Of a stretch of 25,086 nt of DNA, positions 18,724-22,750 are shown one piece after another. Both the position numbers and the translations under genes were made by a program. The notes below the pieces were generated by a model. That model did not search any database. It saw nothing but the letters and a program-made list of their open reading frames with translations, and had not been told where the DNA came from. How positions within the stretch are numbered: position 1 is the first letter of the stretch; each line of letters starts with the position of its first letter. Origin of the DNA: a virus; IMG/VR virus record IMGVR_UViG_3300020438_000257, positions 1 through 25,086 of that record; one strand, written 5' to 3'.

Positions 18724-20493
18724 TTATTCCCAAGGTACAGGTTCAGTAGTTCCATCTGCATTGAGATACACCAGCTGACCATCCCTTACAGTTGCATTAC
18801 GTCTTCCACTTTGTTCGTTTCTAATGTGTTGTGGAGTCAGGTTATTTTTAGTCATGTCATCTAGATCATCCCACTCAACTGATTTACCGGTTGATTGATC
18901 TATAACATCATAGGTAAAATCACCATTTCTATTAGCGGTATAAGTATATTTGTATGAGGTTTCTTTGCCATCAGCATTTGTTGCTGAGATAGTTGTTCCA
19001 CCTTTAGCGGTTGTTTGATGTTTACCTCTAAACATACTTTCATCCCATTGAGGTCTCCAGTCTGTATTAATATCCAGCTCAGGTTCAGGTTCAGGAGTTA
19101 CTTCAGGTTCAGGAGTTACTTCAGGTTCAGGAGTTACTTCAGGTTCAGGAGTTACTTCAGGTTCAGGAGTTACTTCAGGTTCAGGAGTTACAATCTCCTC
19201 ATCAATAGGCGTACCCTCGGGAGTACCTAGGTCAGGATCATTACCTGGATATTCAGGATCAGGATTCTTACCATAGTCAGGATCATAAGGTTCACCAGGA
19301 TCAAGAGGTTCTAAAGGATCAGCAATAAATTCCTCACGTTCAGGCGCTTCATAGGTATATTCAGGTTGAACATATTCAGGCAATACTTGAACAGGTCCTT
19401 GATAAGACAAAGGATCAGGATTAAACCTAGCGCGTTCATCAAGCATCTGTTGTCTAGATGCGATGTCTCTCTTAAGTCCATAATCTTTTACTTCATATGT
19501 TTGAGGTTGAAACATATCAAGTATTTCTTTTACTGATTCATAGGATTTTGATAGTTCATTTTTAGAAATATCAATCATACCTGTAATATCAGATATTTCA
19601 CCAGCTATTCTATCCTGTTCTTGAGCATAGGTTTCACCTCCTTTTGCAGCATTGTATTCATCATTGGTCATGCCAGTTGCTTCCCTTTCTGCGGGAGTCA
19701 TGGCTGTCCAATTTTTACTGGTATCAATACCTTGAGGATTTAATTTACCTATATTTTCTGTAGCTAAATACTCAACCTTCCAAGGTTCAACATCAGCTAA
19801 AAAATCATACTCAATTGGGTCAAGATCATAATCTAGTTCTTCTTCTTCTTCCTCTACTTGAGGAGTTTGGGAATCGTCATAGTAGTTAAAAGATACACCA
19901 CCACTACTATCAGTCTGCCAATTGTAGTTACCAGCAACTTGACCACGTTTAATTCCTTCTAGAATTGTTAAACCATCACCATCTGTATCGTATAGGTACT
20001 CTTCTAGAGCATCTTTAAATTCATTCTCCCTCAAGACTTCGGGGTTTTTTATGTCACCAAGAAAACCAACGTTGACATCTACAGCATTACCTTCGTCATC
20101 AAATCCAGCTGAATTTAATTGTTGCCTCCAGCTATCCCATGCACCATCAATAAAATCTTCTAAACCTTGAGTCCAAGTATCTTCATCTAAATAACCAATA
20201 GCATTAATGTAGTAATCATTACCAGGTGGAGGTTGACTACCATCCCAACTAACGTCACCTGATGCATCGGTAACAGTTAGCCTACCGTCAAAATCACGAT
20301 TAGGTCTAGTAACGTATGTATCTATATCCTGCTGAACTGTAAGAAGTCCATCAGTTATAAATCCAGAGAAAGCAGCATCATCTACATTTGTTTTTGTACG
20401 TAGCTGTCTAATATCGTTCTGTGTTAATTGACCATCTGAAACTAGACCTTGAAAAATATCCCAAAAGTCTGAGTCTTCAATTCTGTATGCCAT
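18724..20493 (-). CDS. 589-residue acidic protein with VTPEPE repeat, unknown function, upstream of portal
   Basis: A long, very acidic protein. Residues ~1-75 look helical and globular, with a repeated theme (DGQLTQNDIRQLR and DGLLTVQQDIDTY). Residues ~170-180 contain DTDGDGLT, an EF-hand or type-3-like calcium loop. Residues ~210-225 are a run of Glu/Asp. Residues ~360-420 are rich in Pro, Asp, Tyr and Glu. Residues ~434-470 are six copies of VTPEPE. The C-terminal ~110 residues look globular and beta-rich (SYKYTYTANRNGDFTYDVID). I do not recognise the family. Position before the portal and the charge suggest a virion or head-tail accessory protein, perhaps a surface or calcium-binding one. 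It has the best Shine-Dalgarno site in the window. Start codon 20493 overlaps the preceding gene by 17 nt. Confidence 0.85.
   Translation of the reverse strand: MAYRIEDSDFWDIFQGLVSDGQLTQNDIRQLRTKTNVDDAAFSGFITDGLLTVQQDIDTYVTRPNRDFDGRLTVTDASGDVSWDGSQPPPGNDYYINAIGYLDEDTWTQGLEDFIDGAWDSWRQQLNSAGFDDEGNAVDVNVGFLGDIKNPEVLRENEFKDALEEYLYDTDGDGLTILEGIKRGQVAGNYNWQTDSSGGVSFNYYDDSQTPQVEEEEEELDYDLDPIEYDFLADVEPWKVEYLATENIGKLNPQGIDTSKNWTAMTPAEREATGMTNDEYNAAKGGETYAQEQDRIAGEISDITGMIDISKNELSKSYESVKEILDMFQPQTYEVKDYGLKRDIASRQQMLDERARFNPDPLSYQGPVQVLPEYVQPEYTYEAPEREEFIADPLEPLDPGEPYDPDYGKNPDPEYPGNDPDLGTPEGTPIDEEIVTPEPEVTPEPEVTPEPEVTPEPEVTPEPEVTPEPEPELDINTDWRPQWDESMFRGKHQTTAKGGTTISATNADGKETSYKYTYTANRNGDFTYDVIDQSTGKSVEWDDLDDMTKNNLTPQHIRNEQSGRRNATVRDGQLVYLNADGTTEPVPWE
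19087..19191 (-). repeat. 18-bp tandem repeat encoding VTPEPE
   Basis: Five complete copies and one partial copy of an 18-bp unit (plus strand AGGTTCAGGAGTTACTTC) repeat in frame with almost no divergence and encode six VTPEPE hexapeptides. The near identity at DNA level, including third positions, points to recent expansion by slippage or unequal recombination. The repeat is a good candidate for length variation between related phages. Confidence 0.95.
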
Positions 20494-20686
20494 TGGTCTC
20501 CTCCTCTATTTTATCTAGTAGCCACTCAACGACAGAACGTTGACCAGCTTTGTACATAATCATGTTCATGTCGTCAGTAGGACTAGGGTTAAAAGGTGGA
20601 AAATTATCATCTAATTGGTTGATGATTGCATTGAGTTCAATGCCTTTAGCTTCGAGTAGACTAAGCGTACGAGGGGAGGTTGACAT
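20477..20686 (-). CDS. 69-residue conserved small protein, unknown function
   Basis: From ATG 20686 the protein starts MSTSPRTLSLLEAKGIELNA and contains DDMNMIMYKAGQRSVVEWLL near the C-terminus, a segment I recall from small proteins near the portal of T7-like cyanophages. It looks entirely helical, with no membrane segment and no known domain. The ORF could be extended upstream, but that part lies inside the RNR small-subunit gene and looks like a shadow. The chosen start overlaps that gene by 26 nt. It also overlaps the next gene by 17 nt. Possibly a structural or assembly factor; unproven. Confidence 0.7.
   Translation of the reverse strand: MSTSPRTLSLLEAKGIELNAIINQLDDNFPPFNPSPTDDMNMIMYKAGQRSVVEWLLDKIEEETNGIQN
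20500..20505 (-). promoter_or_regulatory. Strong Shine-Dalgarno AGGAGG for the 589-residue protein
   Basis: AGGAGG lies six bases before ATG 20493, within a GAGGAGGAG stretch. It stands out because most starts in this window have weak or no ribosome-binding motifs. It fixes the start of the 589-residue gene and suggests high translation. Confidence 0.8.
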
Positions 20687-21377
20687 TACTGTGTTCAAAG
20701 AAAGCAGGCATACGTGCAGCTTTAGTAGCAGCAAACTCAGGAGCTTTACCCTGATACATTAGGTTGTCGCTACTATCAAGCCAAAATTTTTTATCCAAAT
20801 ATCTGGTCTCAGTATTACTTTCTAGTGGTTGCATAACCCAGTTAATTGTTGCCTTCCTGAGTTTATCCAGGGAAGGAGACGGTCTGAGTCCAAGTTCCGC
20901 ACACACAAGAGAGTTCGTTGCAACATGAATTTGCTCATCTCTGGAGATGTCAGCGGATACGGTACGCATTCCAGCATCACCATTCCACCGAAAAAAGGGG
21001 AGTAGTACAAAGAAAATTGCACGCTCGGCAACCATTGCTTTGAGCACCGTGTGATCTGGATGCGCCATCCACGCTTCTTTAAGTTTAAATGCTTCTGCTT
21101 CTGCTTTGTCATCCACACCGTAAGCATCGGCGATGTAATTGAGAGCCAAGTCATGGTTCTCTTCATCGGTGACGTTTGAGAGGAGTAACTTGCGTGCCAT
21201 AGACGGCACTTCAGTAGCCAAGGCATCAGTTATAAAATCTCCCACAGGTAGTTCCATATGTCTTAAGGCAAGAGCACGGTGGATTGTTTCCTCCGCGCCT
21301 TCCTTGCATGTACCAGCAATCGGTTTGACCGGTGTCCATTTGCGCTTCCGCGCCATTAGTTTTTCGTAAGGGTTCAT
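20661..21377 (-). CDS. nrdB: Ribonucleotide reductase small (beta) subunit, compact, apparently without the radical tyrosine
   Basis: A 238-residue protein from ATG 21377, whose ATGA overlaps the stop of the large-subunit gene. Ferritin-like dimetal ligands can be placed: Glu42 (less sure), Glu72-x-x-His75, Glu118 (AERAIFF) and Glu148-x-x-His151 in SRDEQIH, the equivalent of ARDEALH in E. coli NrdB. The residue four after His75, where E. coli has the radical Tyr122, is Leu79. The protein is far shorter than E. coli NrdB (376). It would assemble a dimetal cofactor that starts radical transfer to the large subunit for reduction of ribonucleotides. RNRs of this cyanopodovirus type were once called class II; a published reanalysis of P-SSP7 reassigned them to class I with a small beta subunit, which fits here. 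Cofactor type cannot be told from sequence. Confidence 0.8.
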   Translation of the reverse strand: MNPYEKLMARKRKWTPVKPIAGTCKEGAEETIHRALALRHMELPVGDFITDALATEVPSMARKLLLSNVTDEENHDLALNYIADAYGVDDKAEAEAFKLKEAWMAHPDHTVLKAMVAERAIFFVLLPFFRWNGDAGMRTVSADISRDEQIHVATNSLVCAELGLRPSPSLDKLRKATINWVMQPLESNTETRYLDKKFWLDSSDNLMYQGKAPEFAATKAARMPAFFEHSNVNLPSYA

Positions 21378-22750
21378 TCTGCACAATCACATTGAGGTTG
21401 ATTATCTCCTTCAAATAGGTTGGCAAGATAAATATCTACATCCTCCTCATCAAGAGCAGCATATGCATTAGACTTATCTTGTACATCACCCATTACCTGG
21501 AGACTATAATAAAGAGAGGTTTGTGGAGACTTAAGCCACTCTTCAATAAATCCCTCATCCATTGTTGCCAAATCTGACCACCAATTAAAAGAGTATCCGT
21601 GAAGAAGTCCACTGTTTTGGTATAAAGTAATAATACCATCAGCAACAGCTTTGTAATTATCCCATCCAACTTCGGATGCAATTTCTACTTCGCCATAATC
21701 ATATGTTTGGACACCAAAGGTGCCAGAATCACGGTCAACTGTCCGTGCAATAGGTGGTGCAATCTCAGGAGTACAAGTAAAGCCATCAACATCCTGTGAG
21801 CGGTAGCTACAAGACGCTGTAGGAGCGATTGCAAAGGCTCGAACCATATTGTATTGGAGAGCTATTTCAGAGGCTTCCTTGATCCCCTGAGCGATTCGAG
21901 CAACAAGCTCATAAGCTACTGTTGCTTTGGTTTCGTTGTTATTAAATTGTTCGAGTGCACGTCCAAACTGCTCATAACTAACGTTGTATCTCCGCAAGAG
22001 ATTTGAGAGACCCAATGCTCCAAGTCCAACCTGTCTATCAGTGGTAGAAGATAAGTACTCTCCTGTCTCTCCCACACCCGTTCTTGGATGTAACTCACAA
22101 AGTTCCTGCATCCCGACACGGAAAGCTTTTGGGATGTCTTCATATGTACAGGCTCCAAGATTGACGTGCTGTAGCAAACAGGTACCTCGGGAGGGCAAGT
22201 ACACTTCAAGACAAACGTTTCCACGTATTCTCTTTGTTCCTTCATACTTAACTTTATTCAGCCAGATGTCACCGGCTTTGATTGATTGTAGTAGATATTG
22301 TTTGACAAGTTTATCCATGTCATTCCACCACTCATCAGTGATGTTTACACATCGCTTGACCCATGGGAGTTGTTCTCGTGGTGTTCTAATGAACTCTTCA
22401 ATGTCTGGATGTGATGCGTCTAGATGGAGCACGCAAGCACCGTTCTTATAACGTCCACCACGTCTTAGTGTTTCGTTGAGGATGCTATAAATTCTTCCAA
22501 ACGAGACTGGACCACTAGCAATGAGTCCATTGCCATTATCGCTTCCTCGCGGTCGTAGTTTTGAAAGGTGGACCGCGACTCCAGCGCCATTACGGAGTGC
22601 ATGAGAGGCGAAACGCCATGAAGCTTCGATACCATTAGGACCCTCCATTGAGTCTTCAACAACAAATACTGTGCAGGACACTGGCAAGCGTCCTTCGGGA
22701 TCATCGATCCAAGATTGCACCCGTCCGGTGCGTGAGATGAAGTTAACCAT
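21374..22750 (-). CDS. nrdA: Ribonucleotide reductase large (alpha) subunit, short form
   Basis: A 458-residue catalytic subunit. Active-site Asn178-x-Cys180-x-Glu182 (NVCLE) matches Asn437/Cys439/Glu441 of E. coli NrdA. Cys26 (PVSC) and Cys191 (CLLQHVNLGA) match the redox pair Cys225/Cys462. Tyr414-Tyr415 (SLYYS) match the radical-transfer pair Tyr730/731, diagnostic for class I. The C-terminus CDCAE holds the swinging cysteine pair. The usual N-terminal ~200 residues, including any ATP-cone, are missing: an in-frame TAA lies immediately before the ATG, so no extension is possible. It therefore probably lacks the usual overall activity switch. It would make dNDPs from host ribonucleotides for phage DNA. 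The start overlaps the MazG-like gene by 8 nt, and the next gene is its partner. Confidence 0.9.
   Translation of the reverse strand: MVNFISRTGRVQSWIDDPEGRLPVSCTVFVVEDSMEGPNGIEASWRFASHALRNGAGVAVHLSKLRPRGSDNGNGLIASGPVSFGRIYSILNETLRRGGRYKNGACVLHLDASHPDIEEFIRTPREQLPWVKRCVNITDEWWNDMDKLVKQYLLQSIKAGDIWLNKVKYEGTKRIRGNVCLEVYLPSRGTCLLQHVNLGACTYEDIPKAFRVGMQELCELHPRTGVGETGEYLSSTTDRQVGLGALGLSNLLRRYNVSYEQFGRALEQFNNNETKATVAYELVARIAQGIKEASEIALQYNMVRAFAIAPTASCSYRSQDVDGFTCTPEIAPPIARTVDRDSGTFGVQTYDYGEVEIASEVGWDNYKAVADGIITLYQNSGLLHGYSFNWWSDLATMDEGFIEEWLKSPQTSLYYSLQVMGDVQDKSNAYAALDEEDVDIYLANLFEGDNQPQCDCAE

Follow-up and report, generated by a model that had tools for sequence, protein, structure and literature searches.

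A class Ø ribonucleotide reductase in a T7-like cyanophage genome carries leucine at the radical-tyrosine site of its small subunit

We analyzed the ribonucleotide reductase (RNR) genes of IMG/VR record IMGVR_UViG_3300020438_000257, positions 1 to 25,086 of which are referred to here as the window. Taken over the whole window, the gene order of this 25-kb virus record is that of a T7-like cyanophage, with genes for DNA polymerase, an exonuclease, a DUF3310 protein, a MazG-type protein, RNR alpha, RNR beta, a small ORF, a 589-aa ORF, portal, scaffold, psbA, and capsid and tail proteins, all on the minus strand. Over the RNR genes, DNA identity to the best named relative, Synechococcus phage S-RIP1, is 73%. 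The 589-aa ORF (18724-20493, minus strand), which contains a PEVTPE repeat and separates the RNR block from the portal gene, belongs to no PHROG family and had no match among 50,697 phage records; P-SSP7 has short ORFs only at this place. The coordinates and strand of the RNR pair given in a preliminary description, made from the sequence alone, hold:

21374-22750, minus strand: RNR catalytic subunit alpha, 458 aa, class Ø / Cyano SP, no ATP-cone (Pfam PF02867, E 2.8e-21)
20661-21377, minus strand: RNR ferritin-like radical-generating subunit beta, 238 aa from ATG (phrog_6799, E 2.3e-133; AlphaFold2 model matches class I R2)
21374-21377, minus strand: ATGA overlap of the alpha stop and beta start, read from the sequence

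The -3 gap between alpha and beta recurs in 140 loci compared, and the ATGA overlap may couple the translation of the two subunits. Over residues 4-448, the window alpha matches the 470-aa alpha of Synechococcus phage S-CBP4, solved by cryo-EM (7URG), with an E-value of 1.4e-211. An ATP-cone is absent, as only 25 residues lie ahead of the first active-site Cys and PF02867 is the sole domain found. The catalytic elements of alpha are as follows:

22673-22675, minus strand: Cys26, active-site reducing Cys (C30 of 7URG by alignment), invariant in 200/200
22205-22219, minus strand: finger-loop motif N-V-C180-L-E, residues 178-182, a class Ø signature recognized in the sequence
22178-22180, minus strand: Cys191, active-site reducing Cys (C196 of 7URG by alignment), invariant in 200/200
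21506-21511, minus strand: Tyr414-Tyr415 radical-transfer dyad (Y420-Y421 of 7URG by alignment), invariant in 200/200
21383-21391, minus strand: C-terminal C454-D-C456 pair, invariant as a pair in 200 distinct alphas

The NVCLE motif has been described for the finger loop of class Ø (PMC9669993), and its C180 is presumably the Cys that becomes the thiyl radical. The C-terminal Cys pair takes the form C-x-C in 139 and C-x-x-C in 61 of the 200 distinct alphas, and in the window protein it would serve to re-reduce the active site. Both the dyad and the Cys pair had been noted in the preliminary description, and the conservation just given bears this out.

The main claim of that description concerned beta, where a by-eye alignment of E72-x-x-H75 to E115-x-x-H118 of the E. 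coli protein had put Leu79 at the position of the radical Tyr122. Sequence similarity between beta and class I R2 proteins is weak (best E 0.028); a single-sequence search of beta against class I R2 gave nothing meaningful, and the window's own record, when searched with PF00268, yielded none either. The register was upheld, without hand placement, when a profile of 38 class Ø betas was aligned to a profile of 8 class I R2 proteins (NrdB and NrdF of E. coli plus six phage proteins): E72/H75 pair with E. coli E115/H118, L79 with Y122, E118 with E204, and D147-E148-x-x-H151 with D237-E238-x-x-H241 of class I R2. This alignment, made with hhalign and in the expected register, has a low probability value (10%) but a P of 0.003. 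The metal site is laid out as follows:

21252-21254, minus strand: Glu42, first metal ligand (D84 position; Glu as in Ic/Id) from conservation and table 3 of Harrison et al., followed by invariant Pro44 and Gly/Lys46
21153-21164, minus strand: E72-x-x-H75, helix 2 metal ligands, preceded by the second-sphere residue D71 (260/260; profile alignment)
21141-21143, minus strand: Leu79 at the radical-Tyr (Y122) position (profile alignment)
21024-21026, minus strand: Glu118, metal ligand at the E204 position (260/260; profile alignment)
20925-20939, minus strand: D147-E148-x-x-H151, the Asp237-like residue and helix 4 metal ligands (260/260; profile alignment)

We gathered 260 distinct betas from IMG/VR, GTDB genomes and named phages; 258 of them have Leu at site 79, two have Phe, and none has Tyr. 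The radical-site Tyr is missing, as first observed. All six ligands (E42, E72, H75, E118, E148 and H151) are invariant in the same set, in agreement with the earlier view that the dimetal site is intact; the pattern is E-E-H-E-E-H with a D/D second sphere, Asp71 being found in 260/260. The word "Tyr-free", which had also been applied to this beta, is right for the radical site but not for the chain, which has six Tyr residues. Y4, Y81, Y86, Y193 and Y208 vary, and because Y237 is the sole invariant Tyr, no other conserved Tyr of beta can hold a stable radical. A second placement had been offered on an ETIH at residues 30-33. This register was rejected, since neither residue is conserved (E30 in 136/197, H33 in 52/197); the motif sits at the start of the E42-bearing helix (residues 29-53 of the model), and it rescues no Tyr because Ala37 would fall at the Tyr position (Ala in 249/260).

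In the AlphaFold2 model of beta (mean pLDDT 88.6, pTM 0.85), four core helices carry the four ligand groups. All 50 structural matches listed for it are R2 proteins (Z 18.3-20.1 over 213-223 residues, rmsd about 3 A), including the class Ic R2 of Chlamydia trachomatis at Z 19.7, and no R2lox is among the 50, an absence that does not count against R2lox. As all R2 structures tie in Z, the fold cannot discriminate between R2 classes. Compared with class Ia/Ib R2 (E. coli NrdB/NrdF), the window beta has the same fold, ligand order and Trp/Asp/Tyr transfer residues, but it has Leu for the radical Tyr, Glu for Asp84 and a much shorter chain. The residues likely to serve radical transfer, and the tail, are:

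21336-21338, minus strand: Trp14, probable E. coli Trp48 equivalent from its position (260/260; model residue 1 onward aligns to E. coli 33 onward)
20694-20702, minus strand: F226-F227-E228, resembling DFFE of class I R2 tails (260/260)
20667-20669, minus strand: Tyr237, penultimate residue and probable Y356 equivalent (260/260)

The spacing FFE-x8-Y is kept in the 258 sequences that fit the pattern, and the chain stops right past the terminal Tyr (Y237-A238). Several class I R2 tails have FFE five residues ahead of the Y356 equivalent, and E. coli has Glu350 at that spacing; the comparison suggests that the class Ø tail may be of the class I kind, its spacer lengthened and its last stretch removed. 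Closer to the metal site, Pro44, two residues past ligand E42, is invariant, and position 46 (E42+4; window 21240-21242, minus strand) is, with few exceptions, Gly in betas that accompany C-x-C alphas (128) and Lys in those that accompany C-x-x-C alphas (46). In class Id the helix is unwound right behind the corresponding ligand, and a Lys stands at the equivalent distance; this likeness is a lead and not a test. As far as the accessible portions of the published class Ø descriptions extend, the FFE-x8-Y tail, Pro44 and the Gly/Lys46 split are absent from them.

The window RNR is a new copy of a published kind, class Ø / Cyano SP, and our finding is an independent rediscovery, since the same family and its Tyr loss were described in 2019 and 2022. 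Harrison et al. recognized this beta in P-SSP7 and noted that it lacks Tyr122; they tabulated the E-E-H-E-E-H ligands with a D/D second sphere (tables 3-4) and suggested "If" as the name of a new subclass (Harrison et al., 2019; PMC6370689). Burnim et al. placed the alpha in a clade of its own, class Ø, noted that the beta has Phe or Leu in place of the Tyr, carries the terminal Tyr and lacks the tail, and reported that class Ø betas may be unstable when metal is absent (Burnim et al., 2022; PMC9531940). The window has each hallmark: alpha homology, NVCLE, no ATP-cone and a C-x-C tail, and directly downstream a 238-aa R2-fold beta with Leu79, the ligand pattern and the terminal Tyr. Subunit sizes, NVCLE, Tyr dyad, C-x-C tail, Leu at the Tyr site, ligands, Asp/Asp second sphere and terminal Tyr are the same in P-SSP7 and S-CBP4, and nothing of substance differs; the window beta is 74% identical to that of P-SSP7, about 76% to that of S-CBP4, and 74-81% to those of the closer named phages. 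The label "class I" used in the preliminary description is disputed, as the alpha falls in the separate class Ø clade of Burnim et al. (PMC9531940). We found no biochemistry on class Ø beta after 2022 in the openly accessible literature, and no activity, metal content or EPR data on any class Ø member in the literature.

Taken together, we consider it likely that the locus encodes a class Ø RNR of a T7-like cyanophage in which a minimal alpha with a class I-type dyad works with a 238-aa beta whose stored oxidant is metal-centred. Lacking the radical-site Tyr, beta probably fires the chemistry from the metal pair alone. O2, H2O2 or superoxide would convert the dimetal centre into a high-valent cluster, either Mn/Fe on the class Ic model or Mn2 on that of class Id, and this cluster would itself be the stored oxidant. 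In each turnover it may draw an electron from C180 by way of W14/D147 and Y237 of beta and Y415/Y414 of alpha; the resulting C180 thiyl radical would start ribonucleotide reduction, after which the C-terminal Cys pair of alpha would re-reduce C26-C191. The enzyme would supply dNTPs to phage replication. Classes Ic and Id offer precedent for a high-valent dimetal cluster as oxidant (PMC8463856), and the same source counts against the idea in that the class Id cofactor still needs a Tyr at that position for activity. A further point against the scheme is that it gives no part to the invariant W103 and W180. The metal-only oxidant proposed in the preliminary description is therefore well supported and already in the literature (PMC6370689; PMC9531940), though we infer it and the metals are putative. 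No NrdI, thioredoxin or glutaredoxin is annotated in P-SSP7; the enzyme would therefore depend on the host or on free oxidants for its activation and re-reduction. The co-occurrence of class Ø alpha and beta in Microcystis phage Mic1, despite the distance between the genes, favours their pairing. A benefit in low-iron ocean water, also suggested at first, is not supported: Harrison et al. link the enzyme to the intracellular conditions of the host (PMC6370689), and a preprint reports that Cyano SP abundance tracks the distribution of the cyanobacterial hosts (PMC12918982).

The nature of the oxidant can be read in several ways. A Mn(IV)/Fe(III) cofactor of the class Ic type, built with O2 or H2O2 and with the site 1 metal in place of the Tyr, is a serious candidate that stops just short of being probable in our judgement. 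The window beta shares with C. trachomatis NrdB (Mn/Fe) the R2 fold, Glu as first ligand (E42) and a redox-inert residue at the Tyr site (L79; Leu/Phe in the family, as in NrdBzc), and that protein is among the best structural matches listed. Against this, beta lies outside the class Ic group in the trees of Harrison et al. (PMC6370689), and the second-sphere residue before the first ExxH is Asp71 in 260/260, not Glu. The window beta is also about 100 residues shorter and lacks a C-terminal binding tail past the Tyr, and its alpha has no ATP-cone and belongs to a different clade. A dimanganese cluster activated by free superoxide without NrdI, as in class Id (Flavobacterium johnsoniae, Mn2), seems doubtful. 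Glu as first ligand, the lack of an annotated NrdI in P-SSP7, and invariant Pro44 together with Lys46 (E42+4) in the C-x-x-C branch, which bring to mind the unwound helix 1 of class Id and its Lys71 (Glu67+4), all speak for it; yet the conserved second-sphere Tyr that is essential in class Id is Leu79 here, the window's own branch carries Gly46, and helix 29-53 is unbroken in the model. It is possible, if unlikely, that class Ø beta is a distinct subclass, with a Tyr-less metal-only cofactor that is neither the Mn/Fe of Ic nor the Mn2 of Id. In such an enzyme the Id-like Lys at E42+4 would serve superoxide in the C-x-x-C branch, with Gly in the C-x-C branch of the window, and the radical would exit via the chain-end Tyr without the usual alpha-binding tail.

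Two other readings dispense with a metal-centred oxidant in an RNR subunit. A radical stored on another residue of beta, such as a Trp or Tyr81, is decidedly unlikely: W14, W103 and W180 are invariant and site 81 is Tyr in 239/260, but Phe or Leu takes its place in 21/260, and we know of no stable Trp radical that acts as resting oxidant in R2. Least credible, and in our view highly improbable, is that beta is a ferritin-like oxidase of the R2lox type and no RNR subunit, alpha being a B12-dependent class II enzyme. The alpha sequence is as close to class II as to class I, and old annotations label it class II. Yet class II has neither a beta nor a Tyr dyad in the active site, whereas alpha carries the class I dyad; in 7URG this dyad stacks next to the catalytic Cys, at the place of the class II adenosyl pocket (PMC9531940). 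The beta gene overlaps that of alpha, and the protein has the invariant FFE-x8-Y tail at its end.

The Tyr-less class Ø finding itself repeats the publications of 2019 and 2022; the survey of 260 betas makes the missing Tyr a fixed family trait and no quirk of one phage. Among the RNR architectures described, that of class Ø is the most minimal, and its placement close to the root of classes I and II gives its cofactor a bearing on the origin of ferritin-based and B12-based radical generation. In our sample, class Ø is phage-borne. When genomes were scanned, 18 contigs from bacterial or archaeal assemblies (MAG/SAG; L156-L173) proved to carry beta; cyanopodophage genes lie beside beta in 17 of them, and the remaining one (L169) is flanked by phage-family matches. 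As all 18 look like phage, caution is needed in reading class Ø as a bacterial gene.

Several relatives show peculiarities of their own. Microcystis phage Mic1 has its class Ø alpha and beta genes about 12 kb apart (L086:2483-3250, L353:1360-2871), and its alpha is longer, at 503 aa, with a C-x-x-C tail. The beta of phage S-B28 (MK016662.1 28914-29627) is annotated as a periplasmic thiol:disulfide oxidoreductase, likely a misannotation. An apparent frameshift near residue 200 of the S-CBP4 beta gene (L082:2501-3213), present in both GenBank genome records, truncates the annotated protein at 205 aa; a sequencing error is possible. Finally, on one cyanophage contig (L167:3707-4654) a group I intron (Rfam RF00028, 86.5 bits) splits the class Ø beta gene, separating the D147 codon from that of the metal ligand E148; this is the sole such case among the loci compared.
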